Shown here in pieces: positions 38,227 through 58,386 of a stretch of DNA of 64,000 nucleotides. The DNA is taken from assembly GCF_003751945.1 (NCBI RefSeq), contig NZ_RJKL01000001.1, positions 6,962,501 to 7,026,500 on the forward strand, given 5' to 3'. The position numbers were made by a program, and so were the translations under genes. Below the pieces are notes generated by a model. The model did not search any database. It saw only the letters and a program-made list of their open reading frames with translations, and was not told the DNA's origin. Source of the stretch: Couchioplanes caeruleus. GTDB taxonomy: Bacteria > Actinomycetota > Actinomycetes > Mycobacteriales > Micromonosporaceae. Positions within the stretch are counted from its first letter, which is position 1. Every line of letters begins with the position of its first letter.

Positions 38227-39180
38227 GAGGGCATCTGATCCTCGATCGGGTTGATTCGTGTTTGCGGGCAGTTGGTGGCCGTGCTGGCTCGTTGGCAGGG
38301 CATGGGGATGGAGCGACGTCCATATCGATCGGACCTGTCGGATGCGCGGTGGGCGGTGATCGAACCGGTCCTGACGCAGTGGCGGGCCTCTCGGCCAGGA
38401 CTCGGGATCAACCCGCCGGTACACGATCTGCGGGAGATCGTGAACGCGATCCTCTACGTCACACGCACCGGGATCGCCTGGGAGTACCTGCCGCACGATT
38501 TTCCGCCGGCCAAGACGGTGTACGACTACTACGCCAAGTGGGAGAAGGACGGCACGACGCAACGGATCCATGATCTGCTGCGTCGCAGACTCCGGCAGGC
38601 GCATGGCCGTGACGGCTCACCGAGCGCGGCGGTCATCGACGCGCAAAGCGTCAAAACCTCCTGCAACGTAAGGGAATCCGAGCAAGGCATCGACGCGGCA
38701 AAGAAGATCAAGGGCCGTAAGCGGCACATCGTCACCGATACCCTCGGGCTCCTGCTGGCCGTGGTGGTCACCGCGGCGTCCGTGTCGGACACCGCCGCCG
38801 GTCGGGGCCTTCTCGACGAGGTGGCCGCCTCGCATCCCACGGTGCGCAAGGTCTGGGTCGATGGCGGCTACCAGACCACCGTGTGGCGGCGCGGCGCCCG
38901 ACATGGCATCGACGTCGAGAGGGTCACCCGCCGTCCGGCGGAGAAAGGCTTCCGCGCGTTGCCGCGCCGGTGGGTGGTCGAGCGCACCTTCGGCTGGCTG
39001 ATGCAACACCGCCGGCTTGCCCGCGACTACGAGTCCCTGCCCCAACGATCACGCACCATGATCCTCTGGGCCATGGCTAACACAATGTCCCGCCGATTGG
39101 CAGGAGAATCCACCCAAACCTGGCGCGACTAAACACCGCCAATCCGGGTCAGACCCGGCTGCCCGGGATCAGATGCCCTC
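38227..39180 (+). mobile_element. IS5-family insertion sequence A (954 bp)
   Basis: Complete element bounded by 15-bp inverted repeats GAGGGCATCTGATCC at 38227 and its complement ending 39180, with a TTA duplication at 38224-38226 and 39181-39183. It holds one transposase gene. Insertion lies 68 bp after the XRE stop codon. Confidence 0.88.
38302..39132 (+). CDS. IS5-family transposase (IS A)
   Basis: A 276-aa single-frame transposase. It starts MGMERRPYRSDLSDARWAVI (DUF4096-like N-terminus), then the DDE domain: the first Asp in AAVIDAQSVKTS, the second in VWVDGGYQTTVW, and the Glu region RRWVVERTFGWLMQHRRLARDYE. No frameshift is seen and the catalytic residues are present, so it looks active. 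ATG 38302 or 38308 could be the start. Confidence 0.92.
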   Translation: MGMERRPYRSDLSDARWAVIEPVLTQWRASRPGLGINPPVHDLREIVNAILYVTRTGIAWEYLPHDFPPAKTVYDYYAKWEKDGTTQRIHDLLRRRLRQAHGRDGSPSAAVIDAQSVKTSCNVRESEQGIDAAKKIKGRKRHIVTDTLGLLLAVVVTAASVSDTAAGRGLLDEVAASHPTVRKVWVDGGYQTTVWRRGARHGIDVERVTRRPAEKGFRALPRRWVVERTFGWLMQHRRLARDYESLPQRSRTMILWAMANTMSRRLAGESTQTWRD

Positions 39181-39183
39181 TTA

Positions 39184-40290
39184 CTGGACGTTTTGTTGGC
39201 ATTGATGGTGCTAAAGAACGGTTAACAGCAGGCGATGGCAGTACCCGCCTGGCCGATCTAACCGAATAACGCAGTATCAGGTGCTTCAGATCTGTGAGGG
39301 TCCGCGGCTTTTCGTCCCTCGATCATGTTTCATTGACTTCCACCTCGGAATCGGCGGACATGGTGTCCTCACCGCACGACTCCACCACCGTAATCCACTG
39401 CTATGACCGAACGTCGCGCATACCCGTCCGACCTGTCCGACGCCCGCTGGGCCTTGATCGCGCCCCGGCTGACCGCGTGGCGTCAGGCCCGCACCGACGC
39501 CCGCACCGCGATCGGCATCAAAGGCCGCACCCCCAGCCACGACCTGCGGGAGATTTTCAACGCCATCCTCTACGTCAACCGCACCGGCATTGCCTGGCGT
39601 TACCTCCCGCACGACTTCCCTCCACACGCGACGGTCTACGGCTACTTCGCCCTATGGAGTAAGGAAGGGATCTTCACCGCCCTCAACTACAACCTCACCG
39701 GACTCGTCCGTGACCACCACGGCCGATCCGCCGAACCCACCGCATCGATCATGGACACCCAGAGCGTCAAGACCTCCACCAACGTGCCGCTCAAGACCCA
39801 GGGCATCGACGCCGGCAAAAAGATCGCCGGCCGTAAACGCGGCATCATCACCGACACCCTCGGCCTGCTGCTCGCCGTGATCGTCACCGCCGCCAGCGTC
39901 AGCGACAACGTGATCGGCAACGATCTGCTCGACCAGGCCACCGCCACCCACTCCGCCCTGACCAAGACCTGGGTCGATGCCGGCTTCAAAGTCAAAACCG
40001 TCGAACACGGCGCCAGTCTCGACATCGACGTCGAGATCGTCAACAAAGAACCGCAGGTCAAAGGCTTCAACGTGGTCAAACGACGCTGGGTCGTCGAGCG
40101 CACCATTGGCTGGCTCATGCACCACCGCCGCCTGGTGCGCGACTACGAAACCCGGCCCAGCAACTCCGAAGCCATGATCACCCTTGCCATGATCGACAAC
40201 CTCGCTCGCCGAATCACCGGCGAAACCACCCCAACCTGGCGAGACCCTCAAATTACATAACACCACAAAATACGTTAATCAGACGTCCTC
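39184..40290 (+). mobile_element. IS5-family insertion sequence B (about 1.1 kb)
   Basis: Lies directly beside IS A, sharing its right TTA. The ends are less alike (CTGGACGT at 39184 and ACGTCCTC ending 40290), with TTA on both sides (39181-39183 and 40291-40293). It encodes one transposase. Positions 39184-39402 before the transposase show no other gene. Confidence 0.7.
39403..40260 (+). CDS. IS5-family transposase (IS B)
   Basis: A 285-aa transposase related to, but clearly distinct from, the neighbouring one (both share YPSDLSDARWALI-type starts and a DTQSVKTS/DAQSVKTS motif). DDE residues appear in SIMDTQSVKTS, KTWVDAGFKVKT and RRWVVERTIGWLMHHRRLVR. Intact frame, ATG 39403. Codon use includes more AT-rich stretches than the island genes. 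Confidence 0.92.
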   Translation: MTERRAYPSDLSDARWALIAPRLTAWRQARTDARTAIGIKGRTPSHDLREIFNAILYVNRTGIAWRYLPHDFPPHATVYGYFALWSKEGIFTALNYNLTGLVRDHHGRSAEPTASIMDTQSVKTSTNVPLKTQGIDAGKKIAGRKRGIITDTLGLLLAVIVTAASVSDNVIGNDLLDQATATHSALTKTWVDAGFKVKTVEHGASLDIDVEIVNKEPQVKGFNVVKRRWVVERTIGWLMHHRRLVRDYETRPSNSEAMITLAMIDNLARRITGETTPTWRDPQIT

Positions 40291-43510: not shown

Positions 43511-44620
43511 TCACTTCCAGACGAACTCCAGACGATCCGAGTCCAAAGCGACATTCCCTCGCCGCGGGGCGGGCTTCACCTTGACATGGTCCAGCACGAG
43601 CGACACCAATTCGCGCCGGTCCTCGATGGATGCGTCTACCCACCACTCCGCCAGTGCCTCGGGTTCGGGAAGCCTCAGGAGCCGGTCCGCCTGTTTGGCC
43701 CGCTCGAGCAGCGCCTTACGGTCGGCCTTGGTCTGTTTCTCGATCGCTCGCAGTGTCGTCATGCTCAACTCCCGGCGGGCGTACTGCTCTCCCGCTTCCC
43801 GGAGGCGATCGTCGAGATCACTCAGGGCCTGATCGATACTGAAGCCTTCGCTGCCTACAGCGCCGATCGCACGTTTGAGGCGTTCCAGCACCGGAGGTGA
43901 CGCCAGACGCGCGAGCGCTCGGGACGCGACGAGTTCTTCCAGAGCCGGGGCCGCAATGCGGATGCGGCCACATCCATAGGAGGGACTGCCGGTGCGGCAC
44001 ACATACCCGCGTGTGGCCGTCGTAGACGGCTGCGTGTACAGCGGCTTGCCGCACGGATGCGTGCCATGGTCGTCGGGTAGCGGGAAGTCACAGGTCAACA
44101 GTCCACCGGACAGCAGGTACTTGGGGCTGTTCGATACCGGCTGCTCGCGGCTGGGATCGGCGAACAGCTTCATCAGCTTCCGGTGTTCCGCCCGTGTGAT
44201 GATCGCCGGCCAGTCAGCCTTGACCAGCTTTCCGTTGCGCTCCTTCAACCCGGCGAGGCGCGGGTAGCCCACCAGCCGGGTCATCGAATGATGCGACCAC
44301 AAAGCGCCGGTGACTGTCGGTACACCCCGAGCGCGCAGGTCCGCCACGATCGATGTCATCTTTTCGTCGGCAAGAAGCCGTCGCACGACGTCACGGATGA
44401 CGTCTGCCTCCGACTCGATGACGACCATGCCCGTCTGGTCATAGCCGTAACACCGCAACCCATACCCCCAGGATTCCCAGCTACGTCTCTCTGGACGTAG
44501 CCGCTTCCCTTGCCACTGTTGTGCTGTAGCCGGATACAAACGTCGCCGGACGAACGGGCGCCTCAGCCAGCTTCGCCGCCGCTGATCACTGATCCCGGCC
44601 CACCGTACGATGACTGCCAC
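43511..44620 (-). pseudogene. large serine recombinase lacking its catalytic domain
   Basis: A 369-codon frame holding the recombinase domain (SWESWGYGLRCYGYDQTGMV, LRARGVPTVTGALWSHHSM), the zinc ribbon (CDFPLPDDHGTHPCGK, CRTGSPSYGCGRIRI) and a coiled coil of a large serine integrase. The N-terminal resolvase domain with the active serine is absent; the first 40 codons are unrelated, and no resolvase motif was recognised in the other frames upstream. It is convergent with the P450 gene. Most likely the remains of the integrase of a second element. Confidence 0.82.
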
Positions 44621-46144: not shown

Positions 46145-46689
46145 CACTGCGCCGTGCCTTGCAGCAGCTCGGGCAGCGACAGCCGGCCCTCGCGGTGGCT
46201 CGCGGCGACGGTGTCACGGCCGTGGTCCTTGAACGTCATCGTCGTCGACATCGGCGCCGCGGCTGGGCGCACCTCGATGAAGTCCAGGACACGGCCGGTC
46301 GCCGAGTCCACGACGGTGCCGTCCGGCTCCACGCTCAGCCGGGCCAGCAGCGTCTTGCGCCACGCCGGGCGCACGACCTTCTTCGCCGGGATCTGCTCGA
46401 TCTCGCCGGGGTGCTCGCGGGCGCAGTAGTCCAGCAGGGCCTGCTCGTCGACGCGCAGACCCGCTGATGCCTCCGGGACGGTGATCTGCGCGATCGGCGC
46501 GATCGCGCCCGGTAGCCGTACTTCGACGGTGCGGACACCGACAGTGCTGTGCAGGTGCAGCAGCGCGGTGTCCGCCTGCGCGCGGGCCGCGTCGTACGCC
46601 TTCTTCACCTCGTCGAGCAGCGCCTTGAGCACGGCGGCGCGCATCGCCGCGCCGGGCAGCGCCGCCACCGTGGCGGGATCCGCGGTCAC
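46144..46689 (-). CDS. phage-type hypothetical protein
   Basis: A 181-aa protein beside the Sak4-like ATPase. An N-terminal helical part (MRAAVLKALLDEVKKAYDAA) is followed by a beta-rich region (VRTVEVRLPGAIAPIAQITV) and VDEQALLDYCAREHPGEIEQ. Similar small proteins accompany recombination ATPases in actinophages. GTG 46689 with GGAGG upstream; GTGA overlap with the ATPase stop. Confidence 0.68.
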   Translation of the reverse strand: MTADPATVAALPGAAMRAAVLKALLDEVKKAYDAARAQADTALLHLHSTVGVRTVEVRLPGAIAPIAQITVPEASAGLRVDEQALLDYCAREHPGEIEQIPAKKVVRPAWRKTLLARLSVEPDGTVVDSATGRVLDFIEVRPAAAPMSTTMTFKDHGRDTVAASHREGRLSLPELLQGTAQ

Positions 46690-47774
46690 TGGGCTACCTC
46701 CGCCGCACGAGCCTTTGCGCGGGAGCCGGCCGGGCGGCGCCCGGCGGCCGCGGTGTCCTGCGCTTCCTGCTGCGACTTGGCGCCGGACGCAGGCTCGGCC
46801 GGAGTCTGCGCGGATGATGGTGGGCTGTCCGTCTGCTCGGCCGGCATGGTGGCCGGGCCGTTGCGGGCGGCGCTGATCTCCTGCCCGCGGGCGGCGAACT
46901 TATCCCGCAAGGCGAACGACTGCCCGGCGCGTTGCGCCTGCTGCCACCACACGGCCAAGTCCTCGCGGCTGGTGCAGTCCGCGAGCACCCGGTCCCAGTC
47001 GATGGCCCGCGGCGGTTCGCCGTAGGCCAGCCAGTCGAGCATCTGCTCACCGAGCTCCTGGCCCGGCTTGTGGATCACCTGCCCGTCCAGCGCGGTGCAG
47101 CGCGTCTTACTGATCCGCAGGTAGTGCTCGCTGTCGAGATCGCCGAAGACGTCGAACTCAAACTCGAGGCCCTCGCGCTGGTCCGGTTGCATGCCGAGCT
47201 TCGCGACGCGCTTGCGGCCGTCGTTACCTTCCTCGATCTCGTAGCGCTGCTTGGAGCGCAGGCACACCACGACGTGGCCGGGGAACGCCATCAGCGCCTC
47301 GATGTAGGCGCGTTCGATCGGGCGTACGTCGCGCCAGCCGTCCATCGACCGGCCGCCGTTGTTGCGGGTGAACAGGTCGACGAGCTCCAGGACTCCGCCG
47401 GCGCCGAACCAGTAGTGCGACAGCGAGTCGACCTGCAGGCCGATGAACCCGGCGCGGGCGGCTTCCTCGATCGTGGTCACGAGCTCGCGCGGGTCGTACC
47501 GCACCGGTGAGGTCTTCTGGAAGCCGTATCCGCCGGCCTGCTCGGGCGTCATGTCGCCGACGCTCGGCTGGCTAGGGTCGACGGCGTATTTGTCGGCGGA
47601 GTCGCGCTCGGTGTCGATGAACGCGATCCTTTCGGCGCCGTCGGCGACGGTGCGGGCGTCGGTCAGCGCGTAGAGCAGCTTCAGGCCGGTCAGCGTCTTG
47701 CCGGCCCCGCTCGGGCCGGCGAGCGCGATGCGCGCCTTGGCCTGCTTGCGGGTGGCGGGGGTGAACAGAGCCAT
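46686..47774 (-). CDS. Sak4-like phage recombination ATPase
   Basis: A 362-aa RecA-fold ATPase. It starts MALFTPATRKQAKARIALAG with Walker A GPSGAGKTLTGLKLL near residue 22 and Walker B-like RIAFIDTERDSADKYA near 50; the lid region and C-terminal acidic/Pro-rich tail follow. It matches the AAA_24/Sak4 group of phage single-strand annealing or recombination mediators. The ATG at 47774 is preferred (11 bp after GGAAGG); another at 47783 is too close to it. Confidence 0.78.
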   Translation of the reverse strand: MALFTPATRKQAKARIALAGPSGAGKTLTGLKLLYALTDARTVADGAERIAFIDTERDSADKYAVDPSQPSVGDMTPEQAGGYGFQKTSPVRYDPRELVTTIEEAARAGFIGLQVDSLSHYWFGAGGVLELVDLFTRNNGGRSMDGWRDVRPIERAYIEALMAFPGHVVVCLRSKQRYEIEEGNDGRKRVAKLGMQPDQREGLEFEFDVFGDLDSEHYLRISKTRCTALDGQVIHKPGQELGEQMLDWLAYGEPPRAIDWDRVLADCTSREDLAVWWQQAQRAGQSFALRDKFAARGQEISAARNGPATMPAEQTDSPPSSAQTPAEPASGAKSQQEAQDTAAAGRRPAGSRAKARAAEVAQ

Positions 47775-47790
47775 CGGTCTCATCACCTTC

Positions 47791-48045
47791 CTATTCAAGT
47801 GGGTCACGGTCGAGGACAGTGGCCGTATTGATTTTGGGCATGGAAAAGCCAAAGTGGTCGTGGCAGGCAGTGCCGCCTACGACCGCCGGCAGGGCGCACC
47901 CCGGGTCGCGTCCGCACAGGATCGGCTCGCCGTACAGGGTGCAGCCGGTGTCGGTGAGGTGTTGCCAGTCGTCGCCGGCGGGGACGAGCACGCCGCCGCA
48001 AGTGGCGCACTGGGCTTCGTGCGGTCCGGTCGCCGCGATGTTCAT
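47791..48045 (-). CDS. small zinc-ribbon-like protein
   Basis: An 84-aa protein with paired cysteines and histidines (QCATCGGVLVPAGDDW, TGCTLYGEPILCGRDPGC, GTACHDHFGF), consistent with one or two zinc sites. ATG 48045 with AAAGGA upstream; the start overlaps the stop of the winged-helix gene. Palindrome S3 lies inside its last codons. Confidence 0.65.
   Translation of the reverse strand: MNIAATGPHEAQCATCGGVLVPAGDDWQHLTDTGCTLYGEPILCGRDPGCALPAVVGGTACHDHFGFSMPKINTATVLDRDPLE
47806..47826. promoter_or_regulatory. island palindrome S3 (in coding sequence)
   Basis: ACGGTCGA-N5-GTGGCCGT lies in the last codons of the zinc-ribbon-like gene, 32-52 bp upstream of the ATPase ATG. Its arms match S1; the first arm ends in A rather than C. 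It may control the ATPase operon; no clear -10 was found beside it. Confidence 0.45.
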
Positions 48046-48767
48046 CGCCTGGGTCCTTTCGGGTCGGCGGGGCGGCCGATGCCGTGCATGCGTTCGGAAA
48101 CCGCGCACCCCTTCGCGGCGCAGTAGCCGTTCGGCCCTTCGATGTACGGGTGGTCGGTGTCAGCCCTGCTCCGCGCGCGCCCAACAAGGTCAACAGATGA
48201 GCTGGTCTGGTTGAGTCCGGCTGGCGGACCAACTCGGTCCGGGTGCCGGACTAGCTCTGGTCCGGCTGGCGGACCAACCGGCCTCTGATCTGGTCCGGGT
48301 GCCGGACTACCAAAGCGGGGTGATTCTGGCGCTGGTCCGCTGGGCGGACTAACTACGCCGTCAGCGGCTGGTCCGCCGGCCGGACTAACCGAAGGGGGCA
48401 TATCCGACACTGGTCCGTCTGGCGGCTCAGCGGGCAGGGTGAGGGAGTCCAGCGCGGCGGCGGGTACGGCGAGGCGGTATACGGTCCGCTTCTTGCGGAC
48501 GCGGGCGTCGGCGACGGTCGGCCGGTCACGGATCACCCAGCCGACGCCCTCTAGGGTGTTCAGCCACTCGGCCACCGTCGACCGGGCGTACCCGGTGGCG
48601 TCCTTGAGCTCGGTCAGGCTCGGCGTGAACCGCTCAGGAATCGTCGCAGTCTTGACGTCGACATACGTCAGCAGCGTCAGGATGATGTGGCGCCCCGGTG
48701 GTTCCAGGCGCGAGGCCCGGACTGCCTTCTCGACGGTCCATCGGTCGACCATCCACGCGACCCCCAT
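48042..48767 (-). CDS. winged-helix replication-initiator-like protein
   Basis: A 241-aa protein. Residues about 5-105 form a winged helix typical of phage O/DnaD-like or small-replicon proteins (WTVEKAVRASRLEPPGRHII, SLTELKDATGYARSTVAEWL, GVGWVIRDRPTVADARVRKK). Residues about 110-195 are a Pro/Gly-rich linker whose DNA carries an iteron-like array. The end has two cysteines (GYCAAKGCAVSERM). Start ATG 48767 or 48752. This layout, DNA-binding head plus binding sites in the linker DNA, recalls lambda O, though no helicase loader or primase is visible nearby. Confidence 0.68.
   Translation of the reverse strand: MGVAWMVDRWTVEKAVRASRLEPPGRHIILTLLTYVDVKTATIPERFTPSLTELKDATGYARSTVAEWLNTLEGVGWVIRDRPTVADARVRKKRTVYRLAVPAAALDSLTLPAEPPDGPVSDMPPSVSPAGGPAADGVVSPPSGPAPESPRFGSPAPGPDQRPVGPPAGPELVRHPDRVGPPAGLNQTSSSVDLVGRARSRADTDHPYIEGPNGYCAAKGCAVSERMHGIGRPADPKGPRR
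48215..48427. repeat. iteron-like array GTCCG-N5-CGGAC (six perfect copies plus one imperfect)
   Basis: Inverted-repeat units GTCCG-N5-CGGAC start at 48215, 48237, 48260, 48293, 48335 and 48371, with an imperfect seventh at 48413 (CGGCT in the second arm). Most copies extend to TGGTCCG...CGGACTAA. The copies at 48237 and 48293 have identical 15-mers yet are read in different codon phases (one gives VRHPD, the other SPAPGP), so DNA identity, not protein identity, is conserved. Confidence 0.85.
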
Positions 48768-54300: not shown

Positions 54301-55567
54301 TGGCGGACAGTGCGTATTGCTGATGGCAGGTTCCCACCGCCTGCGCGGTGTAGGCGTGCGAGCCGGTCTCGACCGTGCCGTTGGGGCCCATCAGCACCAT
54401 CGCGGGCATCAGCGGGCTCGGTTCCCGTGTGGGCGCCGTCCCTTCCCGCAGCGTCTTGCGGAGCACGATGCCTTCATGGTTGGGGTCCGGGCCGACCGTG
54501 CCGAGGCGGTTGAGCACGACCGGCACAGGAGAGGTGAGCGACAACGCCCCGGCGAACGCCTGCGTGACGGTCAGCGCGTACTTTGCGCCGCGGGCCAACG
54601 ACACCGGGAAGCCGAAGTTGTGCAGCTGGCGGATCGGCACGTCGAAGAAGTAGCCGCCGTCGGCCTGCGCGGCTCCACCGGAGATGTCCAGGCCACCCGC
54701 CGCGATGCGCGACTCCTCGCAGAAGGTGACCTCGAGGGCGACGTGGTGGATCTGGAACACGGCGCCGCCGGGCACCGTTCCGCTGGTGCTGAGCCGCACG
54801 TTGATGTTGGCACCGCCCGCCCCTGCGAGGGCGTCGAGGCCGGTGGTGGGCGTCGGCGCGAACGGCGTCCCGATCGCCTTGAAGGGTAGCCGTGAGGCGA
54901 TCGACGCCGGGCTGTTTGTCGGCGACCACCACGGGTTCAGTTCGCCGAGCGGTGCCCGGCGCACGCTCACCCCGGCCTGCGGGGACGCCGGCCCGGTCAC
55001 GGTGTCGTCCATGACCCAGTTCAGATTCGCTGCCGGGCGTTCCAACCCGACGGTCAGCGCGGCCGGCACCGTCTCGAACGGCCCGGTCACCGCGTAGAGG
55101 ACGGTGACGTCCAGGATCCGCCGGTATTGCAGCGCCGCGACGATGTGCCCGGCGGTGACCGCAAACCAGAACCGCGCGCCAGCGTTCGGCCCGGTCAAGG
55201 TCACATGCCCGGCGTCGGACGGGTTGTGTACTGCCGCTTGGTAGGTGCCGGCGCCGCCGCCGAGCGCTGCCCCGGTCACCGCTGCGCCGGACGTGCAGGG
55301 GATGACCAGTTTGCGGATCGGGCCGGTCGCCGTGGCTGCGCCGTCGTTGTACAGGTTCACCGACACATGCTTCTGCCGCGGCTGGCCCGGCGGGGGTTGC
55401 ACCAGGACCCGCACCCGGTCCGGGCCGACCTGCAACTCCTTCCAGTTTGTGGCCGAGCGGAACGTGTAACCGACCTCGGTTGCCGGGTCGAGCATCACCT
55501 GGTCTGCGACCAGCGGCGCCCACTGCATCCCCACCACGTGCGGCAGGTCCGGGTTGTAGTTGCCCAT
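51335..55567 (-). CDS. giant minor tail protein with fibronectin-III-like and lectin-like domains
   Basis: A 1410-aa structural protein. It begins MGNYNPDLPHVVGMQWAPLV. Beta-sandwich modules follow; a fibronectin III-like unit is visible around residues 590-690 (RLRWDPINSSMVRGWAHYEV, TTRYRIRAVHRTGIGGPWTA). Around residues 920-1080 is a carbohydrate-binding-module-like segment (NPTFETDTAGWTAFGASAAR). The C-terminal part resembles LamG-type modules. Such proteins form the tip or fibre that contacts the host surface. Start and stop overlap its neighbours. Confidence 0.75.
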   Translation of the reverse strand: MGNYNPDLPHVVGMQWAPLVADQVMLDPATEVGYTFRSATNWKELQVGPDRVRVLVQPPPGQPRQKHVSVNLYNDGAATATGPIRKLVIPCTSGAAVTGAALGGGAGTYQAAVHNPSDAGHVTLTGPNAGARFWFAVTAGHIVAALQYRRILDVTVLYAVTGPFETVPAALTVGLERPAANLNWVMDDTVTGPASPQAGVSVRRAPLGELNPWWSPTNSPASIASRLPFKAIGTPFAPTPTTGLDALAGAGGANINVRLSTSGTVPGGAVFQIHHVALEVTFCEESRIAAGGLDISGGAAQADGGYFFDVPIRQLHNFGFPVSLARGAKYALTVTQAFAGALSLTSPVPVVLNRLGTVGPDPNHEGIVLRKTLREGTAPTREPSPLMPAMVLMGPNGTVETGSHAYTAQAVGTCHQQYALSANSQVLTDAVPGTYVWAVFYARHTPGTVDPLTVAQADLHDESAAVGPSGQISVADFDQLPEVANGWKKVTVRLEPPVILTGDDSPLRFRFSSAGDASAPWQVLGADSNPAAQVSSPASRASFNGESDFARLDNQPDTSADLALSLVRDMDPVTGLTVTSQVQDLAVVDADFCWPGDRVPTGIRYHRLRWDPINSSMVRGWAHYEVQRQDDMYGEAWEVIARVAEPHITSIDDYEARVGVTTRYRIRAVHRTGIGGPWTAPVTATIAAPGVTGRNVDSGVLIMTSNHRPAANLAYVMSWDRRSPEEFTFPEAGQVDLQAMYGRDYRVVMRPVERGGVEFARTVLVNAAAIPAGSLDAGFRQLRDLAWESVPYVCVRDELHHRWLSTVLVPSASVRRRPGRSHLQLAQLTVVEVTSTPAPLDGGPAPCEGLRPEGTQIAKATATTTADTFSSRVGADGFDRQVPAGGWGATQMPGQPWQLLQGAAAALSVSDGAGLIQVVEVTNRNPTFETDTAGWTAFGASAARSTVQAHEGAASLVLTPDGVSETARVQSEAVAGAAPGVDWRATAWVRCAVARPVILSINWFDAAGGYLGTSTGPPETVAANTWTRLTFTAATTIAGAARAAVNVVMTGTPPAAHVLFIDEATIAREPATTRLVTAAPVLADVDIRVRFQVDQMPTGAAIQAGLIARDTSGGDYYRAMMAFRTDGQIGVSLERINAGVRTVLVAEQVQTTTDNTPLRYSPSQWITLRFQVRGQVLIAQAFTDAAPPMNAARAVDDTVTAAGRTGVRTVVLPGNTNWATAVRVDSFEVRSPLGDLDMRMLVRPTTEDVWRLSIEQLALHGRAITSHVEVDVNSLGMCAYLSERLSTEACASGEAMQLNPRQRRWVRCVYEQNIGGGQSRISFFTSLYGTTWAAAGSQTGPAVQASTDPGEFLITASEGVTLSRMQWRDGINGRLLASPDFETQPQGTTEFVDAQGNRWEIHGRGICATA

Positions 55568-58386
55568 CAGAGTGTCCTCACCGTCGTTGCCACGTCGCGG
55601 CGCGCCAGCGTCCGCGACACCCCTTCACCGACCGCCTGGCCTACTTGCAGCGCCTCCTGCCGGGTCGGTACCGCCCCCTCGAACGTGATCGAGATGGCGC
55701 CACGGCCGAACATCACCGCCCCGCCGCCGCCCTCGCCGGCGCCGAGCAGGTCCATCAGCCCGGACTGCTCGGCCAGCTCGCGGGCCCGCCGTGGCCGGGT
55801 CAGCGGGATGACGACCTCCCGGCCGGCCTCACCGAGCACGGCGAGGGTGGCCCGGTTCACGACCGCGCCGTCGGCCAGGTACGGGATCCGCGGCAACGAG
55901 CCGGGCAGGTACCGGTCGATGTCGGCGATGCCGGAGTTGATCCGCCCGATCACGTTGTTGAGCCCGGAGCGGACCGCCGCGGTGATCGACGCGGCGATGT
56001 CGCCCAGCGACCCGACGCGGCGCAGGCCGCGCATGAACCCGCCGATGAGGTTGGTGCCGGCCGACACGAACCGGCCCGCCAGCCCGGACAGCCGGCCCGG
56101 CACCCTCGCGACGTAGGAGACCACCGAGGAGATCCCCGACGACGCCGCGCGGCGGGTGGCGTTGAACGCGTTGTTCAGCAGCGAGCCCAGCACGCCGGGC
56201 AGCCGTGACCAGGCCGCACTGATCCGCCCCGGCAGCCCCGTCGCGAACGACACCAGCGAGGCGATGCCGCGGCTCGCCAGCGACGTCGCCGAGCTCCACA
56301 CGCCGGTGAAGAACCGCGAGATCGACCCGGCCAGCGATTGCAGCGCCGCCATGATCCGTCCCGGCAGGGTCGTCACCGAGTACACCAGCAACCCGATGCC
56401 GACACCGACCGCGCGCAGCCCCGAATCGAAGGCAAACTTCAGCGCCCCGACCAGCAGGCCCGGCAGGGCGGCGAGCGCGGCGAGCAGCCGGCCGGGCAGC
56501 GACGTCAGGAACTCGCCCAGCCCGGCGAAGAAGCGGGCCACGGCCTGCCACGCGGCGGAGAACGCCCCGCTGATCGCCGCGCCGACTTCCGCCCAGTCGA
56601 TACCGGCGATCGCCGTCGACAGCCGGCCGATCCAGTCCGCGACACCGGTCAGCGGCGCCAGCAGATCGGCCAAGGCGGAGGCGATCCAGGAGATCAGCGG
56701 GGCGACGGCCTTGGACACCATCATCTGCACCAGCACCGCGGCGAGCTTGATCAGCGGGGCGAGGATCTGCGCGGCGAGGATCAGCAGCTCGGCCAAGACC
56801 TTCGTCAGCGGCGCGGCCGCCACGACGATCTCGGTGATGGCCGGGACCAGGTCCACGATGGCGGGGATCAGCGGCATCAGCGCTTCGACCAGCGCGGTGA
56901 CCACCGGCGCGACCGCGTCGAGGGCCGGGGCGAGCGCGGTACCGAGCGCGGCGACGAGCTGACCGATCACCGGGCCGAGCTGCCGGAACAGGTCGGCGAG
57001 CAGCCGGGCGATCGGCGCGAGCGCGTCGGTCAGGGTACGGCCGAGCTGCAGTAGCACGGGGCCGAGGGCGGTGACCAGCGGAGCGATCAGCGGACCGAGC
57101 GCGGACAGGGCGGTGGCGAGCGGCCCGATCAGCATCGCGATCAGCTGACCGACGACCGGTAACAGCGGGGTCAGCGCGGACACGACCGACGCGATCACCT
57201 CACCGATCGGGCCGAGCGCCGGCGCGAGCGCCCGGATCCCTTCGGCGAGCGCGGCGATCAGCTTCGCGGCGACCGGGGCGAGCGCGGCGATCGCCGGGCC
57301 GAGCCCGTCGGCGATGGCCTGGACTGCCGGCAGCACGGCGGCGGCGACCTCGGCCAGGGCCGGCAGGATCGAGCGGGCGATGATCCCGAGCAGCGTCGTC
57401 AGGATCGGGCCCAGCCCGGCCGCCAGCGTCGAGATGGTGGAGAACAGGCTGGTCAGGGCTTGCTGGCCGGTCGCCGAGTTCAGGAACGCCTTCAGCTGCC
57501 CGGTGAGCTGGACGAGGGCTGACAGCAGCGACCCGCCGCCGCCCTCCGCGGCGGCGCGCAACGCGGCGCTAATGATCCCGCCGACGTTGACCGCGACCTG
57601 CCCGAGCTGAGTCAGCACCTGCACCGCACCTTGCAACGCCTGTGCGGCGGCGCCGCTGGCGGCCATCTGCGACATCCACGCCCCGAATTGCGCAGCGAGC
57701 GGTCCGGCGAGCTGCGCCAGGCGCGACAGGGTCGGCAACGCCACCACGGCCAGGTCGCGGAACCCGGCCAGCAGCGGACCGACCGCGACACCCGCGCCGG
57801 CGATCGCGGTGCGGGTCGTGTTCAGCACTGCGGTGAGGGCCGACACCGACGCGGACTGCCGTACGAACTCCAGCGCCCGCCGCGCGATCTGTCCGTACTC
57901 GGCGGCGATACCGGCCAGGCCGGTGCGTAGCGGCCCCGAGATCACCCCGGACGTGGCGGTGATCTGCCCGATCAGCGGTCCCGCGAACGCGTCCTGCGCA
58001 CTGCTGCGTACTGCATCCATGGCGGGCTTCACCCCGCGCAGCTCCCGCGCCAGCTGTTGCGCCCGCGGAGACAGGTTCTCCAGGGACTTCTCGAATGCGG
58101 CCGCGTCGCCGGTGGCCGCGGCCGAGAACGCCTCCCCCAGCCCTGAGGTGGCGAGCTTCAACGCGCCGATCGCCGCCGATGCCACCGCGATACCGGCCGG
58201 GATCGCTACCGCCGCGCCGCCCAGCTGCGTGATCGCGCCGGCCACTCCGAGCAGATGCGACGACGCCACCGCCGCCACCCCGGTGATCGCACCCAACTTG
58301 AAGACCGACGTCAGGCTTCGCCTCAGATCAGGGGCGAACTTCGAGACGTCTCCGACGATCTCGATGTAAGCCTGCCCCAACGCCAT
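55567..58386 (-). CDS. phage tail tape measure protein
   Basis: A 939-aa protein: N-terminal MALGQAYIEIVGDVSKFAPD (typical tape-measure start), long alanine/leucine-rich hydrophobic helices (about residues 130-640, many units like LVTALGPVLLQLGRTL and IAPLVTALGP), then a soluble end with GEAGREVVIPLTRPRRAREL, a phrase shared by many actinophage tape measures. At about 1.5 angstroms per residue it would set a tail near 140 nm. No chaperone or major tail gene precedes it in the window. Its start follows a TAATCT hexamer by six bases beside palindrome S5. Confidence 0.88.
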   Translation of the reverse strand: MALGQAYIEIVGDVSKFAPDLRRSLTSVFKLGAITGVAAVASSHLLGVAGAITQLGGAAVAIPAGIAVASAAIGALKLATSGLGEAFSAAATGDAAAFEKSLENLSPRAQQLARELRGVKPAMDAVRSSAQDAFAGPLIGQITATSGVISGPLRTGLAGIAAEYGQIARRALEFVRQSASVSALTAVLNTTRTAIAGAGVAVGPLLAGFRDLAVVALPTLSRLAQLAGPLAAQFGAWMSQMAASGAAAQALQGAVQVLTQLGQVAVNVGGIISAALRAAAEGGGGSLLSALVQLTGQLKAFLNSATGQQALTSLFSTISTLAAGLGPILTTLLGIIARSILPALAEVAAAVLPAVQAIADGLGPAIAALAPVAAKLIAALAEGIRALAPALGPIGEVIASVVSALTPLLPVVGQLIAMLIGPLATALSALGPLIAPLVTALGPVLLQLGRTLTDALAPIARLLADLFRQLGPVIGQLVAALGTALAPALDAVAPVVTALVEALMPLIPAIVDLVPAITEIVVAAAPLTKVLAELLILAAQILAPLIKLAAVLVQMMVSKAVAPLISWIASALADLLAPLTGVADWIGRLSTAIAGIDWAEVGAAISGAFSAAWQAVARFFAGLGEFLTSLPGRLLAALAALPGLLVGALKFAFDSGLRAVGVGIGLLVYSVTTLPGRIMAALQSLAGSISRFFTGVWSSATSLASRGIASLVSFATGLPGRISAAWSRLPGVLGSLLNNAFNATRRAASSGISSVVSYVARVPGRLSGLAGRFVSAGTNLIGGFMRGLRRVGSLGDIAASITAAVRSGLNNVIGRINSGIADIDRYLPGSLPRIPYLADGAVVNRATLAVLGEAGREVVIPLTRPRRARELAEQSGLMDLLGAGEGGGGAVMFGRGAISITFEGAVPTRQEALQVGQAVGEGVSRTLARRDVATTVRTL

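Follow-up and report, generated by a model that had tools for sequence, protein, structure and literature searches.

In a few model phages, the origin of replication lies within a gene. In phage λ, the gene for the DNA-binding initiator O carries palindromic iterons (ori-λ) in the stretch coding for the protein's linker. The four annotated iterons start 20, 24, and 23 base pairs (bp) apart and hence fall in shifted codon phases, and just 3' of them lies an AT-rich tract (75.6% AT in 45 bp, versus 50% for the locus). Here we describe seven palindromic sites in the linker of a winged-helix protein encoded by Couchioplanes caeruleus, in a stretch of 64,000 nucleotides (contig NZ_RJKL01000001.1, positions 6,962,501 to 7,026,500; hereafter the window, whose numbering is used throughout). 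Across the family to which this protein belongs, such an array very probably constitutes the vegetative replication origin of a phage, set inside the gene of its own O-like initiator. The evidence, all read from sequence, comprises the sites themselves, a constraint on them at the DNA level, their tie to the winged helix, the phase of their spacing, a step in AT content across the family, and the frequency of helicase or loader genes next door.

Comparable layouts have been described elsewhere. Shiga-phage O proteins are described as dimers, with an origin composed of iterons and an AT-rich region in the middle of the O gene. In the Bacillus phage SPP1, oriL lies inside gene 38, so that origin repeats and an AT-rich element again fall within the gene of the initiator, gp38; here the repeats, as described, are direct rather than palindromic, and the phage encodes its own loader (gp39) and helicase (gp40) (PMC6316719). 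Mycobacteriophage RepA is, by description, an actinobacterial phage initiator with a helix-turn-helix, and the origin is thought by the authors to lie upstream of or within repA, in a λ-like arrangement (PMC7157519). A literature search at the level of titles and abstract openings gave no pointer to the array described here.

Among sequenced phages, the Streptomyces phages SV1, Picard, ToastyFinz, and SoJo resemble the window locus in having a winged-helix initiator and palindromes of the same core geometry, and differ from it in the half-site, GGGCC. Arrays of GGGCC-N7-GGCCC were found in SV1 (P = 0.003), Picard (P = 0.003), and ToastyFinz (P = 0.007); the annotation of these genes is either replication initiation or DNA-binding protein. 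The next gene in SoJo is annotated as a "helicase loader". The palindrome search used for these comparisons recovers three of the four λ iterons (arm 4, P = 0.01). The Pseudomonas phage JBD68 is marginal, with two sites (P = 0.037 with arm 5 and 0.143 with arm 4); by eye, its related initiator gene (L175, 2995-3831) carries direct repeats with a GGGGTGCAA core in the linker.

The Couchioplanes locus belongs to this known kind, as a variant of the λ O layout. It has seven sites where λ has four annotated ones, the λ half-site is of the TCCC type, and the C-terminal part of the protein is a short Cys/His tail. The next gene in λ is P, which has no match at the window locus. Because no helicase or loader gene adjoins the initiator in the window, we class the locus as working like λ O rather than as a full member of that type.

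The array and its gene

The initiator gene occupies 48042..48752 on the minus strand, with a start codon chosen by comparison with a relative (P0002), and its reading frame is intact. It encodes 236 amino acids: a winged helix in residues 1 to 100 (48453..48752, minus strand), a disordered linker, and a small Cys/His tail. The protein matches PF09339 (E = 2.3e-5), an IclR/MarR-like winged helix, and its best PHROG family is phrog_391, "replication initiation O-like" (E = 7.8e-6), followed by phrog_270 (E = 9.5e-5). In the structure model, the block-mean predicted local distance difference test score is 94 to 98 over residues 1 to 100 and mostly 45 to 58 in the linker.

Directly after the winged helix, the array spans 48215-48427, or 213 bp of the gene, all within the linker. 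In the order of the protein it begins with an imperfect unit carrying two mismatches (48413..48427) and continues with six perfect GTCCG-N5-CGGAC units at 48371..48385, 48335..48349, 48293..48307, 48260..48274, 48237..48251, and 48215..48229. The N-to-C spacings are 42, 36, 42, 33, 23, and 22 bp. This reproduces the array that a sequence-only reading of the window had described at the same place, with six perfect units, one imperfect unit, and the same spacings. An exact search of all 64 kilobases (kb) returned these six matches and no others, and 100 dinucleotide shuffles of the window gave a mean of 0.51 and a maximum of 4. In the whole genome, the exact pattern occurs at 67 places, versus 55 for the reversed pattern, and among the matches listed the excess consists mostly of the array (6) and one other cluster (3). 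The latter, at L005 4890-5015 (G000:C1:1065907-1066007), contains three intact GTCCGCCTGGCGGAC sites; by eye, the region resembles what remains of another such initiator: a linker with a broken frame and a C-terminal part, without the winged helix.

The sites are not in a single codon phase. The identical 15-mers at 48215 and 48260 are 45 bp apart and share a phase, and those at 48237 and 48293 are 56 bp apart and are therefore read in different phases, as the sequence-only reading had noted; the unit at 48237 differs in phase from the other six. That reading had taken this to mean that selection or copying acts on the DNA, and a constraint at the DNA level is indeed what recoding reveals. When the gene was recoded synonymously 5000 times, and its own synonymous codons were permuted another 5000 times, six sites never appeared (means 0.27 and 0.18, maximum 2), and the count of the shorter core, GTCC-N7-GGAC, was never reached in 5000 codon permutations. 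The palindromes in this gene are not forced by the encoded protein.

The linker is of low complexity and repetitive (GPPxGP, VRxxD), and one might ask whether the palindromes are a by-product of a Pro/Gly-rich repeat or copies of a mobile palindromic repeat. We find this scarcely credible: the recodings and permutations rule out the by-product version for the window gene, and recurring late spacings, phase shifts, and helical phasing in distant relatives (see below) fit poorly with random insertion of a mobile repeat.

The last unit (48215..48229) is followed by a candidate unwinding element at 48170..48214, assigned from its AT content (40%, versus 29.6% for the window) and from the AT peak of the family; it is weak in this copy. 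In the mechanism that we propose, winged-helix dimers would bind each 15-bp palindrome through its GTCC-N7-GGAC core, and dimers on phased sites would assemble a complex similar to the O-some. This complex would open the AT-richer DNA that follows the last site on its 3' side, and the replicative helicase would be recruited and enter there.

Arrays across the family

All eight viral contigs found by protein similarity have four or five perfect sites in the same linker. More widely, the sequence-only reading had proposed that the linkers of homologues be compared, and a significant repeated palindrome is present in 29 of 41 protein-found loci (codon permutation, P of 0.03 or less), many of the 29 being close relatives of one another; the part of the comparison that went the other way is taken up below. 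The half-site is GGCC in L181, GTGC in L182, and of the GTCC (or shifted TCCG) type in the other 27. Both L181 and L182 keep the 7-bp gap, with spacings of 21 to 23 and 45 bp. By position, each of the 29 arrays includes one or more spacings not divisible by three, which means that its sites occupy different codon phases. Several Micromonospora genomes (L034-L036) share the late spacing series 33, 23, 22, and it is also present, at 36 to 37% identity, in L019-L021 and L023; L013, L037, and L039 are among the relatives that have lost one of its sites. In 12 relatives, codon permutation (2000 each) never reached the observed GTCC-N7-GGAC count.

The sites can also be found with no reference to protein. 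A collection of 2.9 million viral contigs was scanned for pairs of GTCCR-N5-YGGAC sites at a distance of 22 or 23 bp, which gave at least 120 stretches, some of them contigs already found by protein, versus 4 for the reversed pattern, a control with equal base composition and different dinucleotides. The open reading frames (ORFs) were then compared with a winged-helix profile after removal of the array and everything following it. The part upstream of the array matched in 108 of 120 loci, versus 5 of the 6462 remaining ORFs in these loci, a result that leans somewhat towards the test set because the profile was iterated on these same loci; the first, uniterated pass matched in 69 of 120 loci versus 1 control ORF. 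In other words, a plain DNA pattern leads to at least 120 stretches, and the ORFs around 108 of the 120 examined belong to a single family of winged-helix initiators. Many uncultured phages thereby become open to tests of where the origin lies, what the initiator recognizes, and how half-sites switch, and Actinoplanes-type bacteria gain a candidate replicon. The 12 loci not assigned to such an ORF are L041, L045, L049, L074, L077, L095, L096, L099, L112, L124, L130, and L158, a few of them near contig ends. That 101 of 101 motif-found arrays occupy more than one codon phase was dropped as evidence, since the search pattern itself demanded 22 or 23 bp; owing to this bias, the codon-phase evidence is taken from the protein-found set.

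The relatives also bear functional signs of replication. Among the 108 array ORFs, 93 have distinct winged helices; 73 of these match phrog_270, "replication initiation protein", and 66 match phrog_391. This tells against another role that the MarR/IclR-like fold would suit, that of a repressor bound to an operator array inside its own gene and silencing the early operon. Fold matches of the winged helix in the PDB are mostly MarR-like (E = 3e-3 or worse), those among viral models extend to a replication protein O, ranked 37th, and a sequence search of solved structures with the initiator gave weak matches (best E = 0.031). We consider the operator improbable, since the absence of any exact site elsewhere in the 64 kb leaves no promoter marked, helicase or loader genes often stand next to initiators of the family, and the AT-rich step after the last site would have no evident role.

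The next gene could be assessed for 74 of the 93. Of these genes, 13 match DnaB-like helicases, 11 match DnaC-like and 2 P-like loaders; the counts may overlap, since a single ORF could hit several families. These neighbors bear in turn on a role in partition, with the palindromes as centromere-like sites bound by a winged-helix adaptor. The centromere-binding protein AspA of pNOB8 is among the first Foldseek matches, and a ParB-like gene lies further downstream in L008 and L010. Both the many DnaB- or DnaC-like next genes and the lack of any family named ParA in the lists for next genes (25 of 65 PHROG families, 21 Pfam families) make partition highly unlikely in our view. Beside the window initiator, too, no ParA-type ATPase was matched among the neighbors scanned.

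Across 87 arrays, AT content rises 21 points over the local baseline at 0 to 30 bp 3' of the last site and is 5 points in excess at 30 to 60 bp; beyond the peak and its shoulders it stays within about 3 points of the baseline. In all 19 relatives chosen for a check, AT content after the last site is above the mean of their own locus. Motif-found spacings of 30 to 89 bp (n = 99) are phased near one turn of DNA, with R = 0.67 at 10.85 bp (null maximum 0.35 in 500 draws), and show no 3-bp period (R = 0.05). The 34 long spacings of the protein-found set, taken from 18 distinct spacing vectors listed by hand, give R = 0.62 at 11.3 bp (null maximum 0.59). Both sets contain relatives, and the phasing numbers are not independent.

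The winged-helix proteins were also compared with 25 loci found by phrog_391 and matching the profile (4 further loci did not match it). None of the 25 has GTCC-N7-GGAC sites. An R[ST][STA] motif is present in 67 of the 93 array proteins and carries little weight, the comparison set being mostly similar to unrelated regulators. On inspection, two ORFs found by phrog_391, L193 and L195, hold candidate arrays of a different sequence: GGGA-N7-TCCC, with four copies at 33 bp, and TGAC-N5-GTCA, with five copies.

Most of the comparative tests support the claim, made in the sequence-only reading, that these iterons lie in the gene of their likely binder, as in λ O. Several results weigh against an origin. 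Homologues that keep the linker and lack the palindromes would, according to the sequence-only reading, refute it; twelve of the 41 homologues have no significant array (L024, L027-L032, L038, L166, L167, L171, and L183), most of them being distant or short (L038 is short) or having imperfect or other repeats by eye (L024, L166, L167, L183). The Streptomyces phages Kromp and Chymera (34% identity) have no repeated palindrome, and Galaxy, MED4-184, and SoJo fail the palindrome test. In L013, the observed GTCC-N7-GGAC count, 4, also arose under random recoding; with the GTCCG form, the three sites of L026 were reached in 2 of 2000 permutations, and L025 has no site of this form. The 34 long spacings of the protein-found set are also periodic at 3 bp (R = 0.52), which makes codon phase a possible cause of their phasing. 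A GC-skew analysis, which had been suggested as a check, found no skew switch at 26 arrays. The fifth base of the site has no clear link with residues of the recognition helix, the top covarying columns not being confined to that helix. In the window itself, the AT-rich stretch is modest, being matched by 11.5% of the 45-mers of the element, and the AT maximum of the gene lies elsewhere. Finally, none of the scanned neighbors of the window initiator matched a helicase or loader in Pfam or PHROG, and ten of 47 listed ORFs from L008, L010, and L011 are integrase parts, ParB-like proteins, and unknowns, with no helicase.

Taken together, the arrays invite a broader conjecture, which we hold tentatively and at rather less than even chances. 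GTCC-N7-GGAC arrays might form one large class of phage origin, with a fixed 15-bp geometry, a fixed helical phasing, and a half-site free to change (to GGCC or GTGC); that the class is cross-phylum is itself part of the conjecture. Within it, and with the same reserve, the Micromonosporaceae module might do without a phage loader and perhaps engage the host helicase through the Cys/His tail or a Cys-rich partner, the latter fused to the initiator in L012. If all this were true, raw DNA alone would suffice to locate origins and to identify their initiators.

The surrounding element

Overlapping the initiator stop by 4 bases is an ORF for a small Cys-rich protein (47791..48045, minus strand), which has no Pfam or PHROG match. 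In L012 (10001-10918; P0026, 306 amino acids), an initiator is naturally fused to a downstream Cys-rich protein similar to this one, hinting that the two may act together. Next comes a putative ATPase (46686..47777, minus strand; AAA_24 in Pfam, phrog_1366), which might be Sak4-like, and after it a phrog_11955 protein. Further on lies the C-terminal part of a large serine integrase (43511..44620, minus strand; Pfam and PHROG), the N-terminal part being outside this ORF. Upstream of the initiator are tail genes, ending with a tape-measure gene (55567..58386, minus strand; PHROG and Pfam), the last phage gene before probable host genes. Both flanks have such host genes, for a P450 on the left and for YbaB and ESX-type proteins on the right.

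Tail genes are present, a scan of 11 element ORFs matched no head or terminase family, and the integrase ORF lacks its N-terminal part; the element thus resembles what is left of a prophage, some 15 kb long. The sequence-only reading had suggested the replication origin of an island. An O-like in-gene origin is well supported for the family; the island looks instead like a prophage remnant, and firing of the window copy is a matter of likelihood. We judge the chances about even that this copy could still fire. By the same token, it is an even matter whether the array is now the relic of an origin in a dead prophage, with no present function, a state compatible with an in-gene origin in the family at large. 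The missing head and terminase matches between the P450 and YbaB/ESX-type genes, together with the short integrase, favor a relic; against it stand six perfect sites out of seven and an intact reading frame for the initiator. The first 240 or so of the 651 positions of the integrase family are left unmatched not only in the window (43511-44620) but also in L008 (15844-17022) and L011 (14547-15506). Because the match starts at the same place in these two, a short integrase need not mean decay, and the three elements may have either a shared decay or a split gene. Elsewhere in the window, at 38251-40260, two adjacent ORFs (293 and 285 amino acids) resemble IS5-type transposases by eye.
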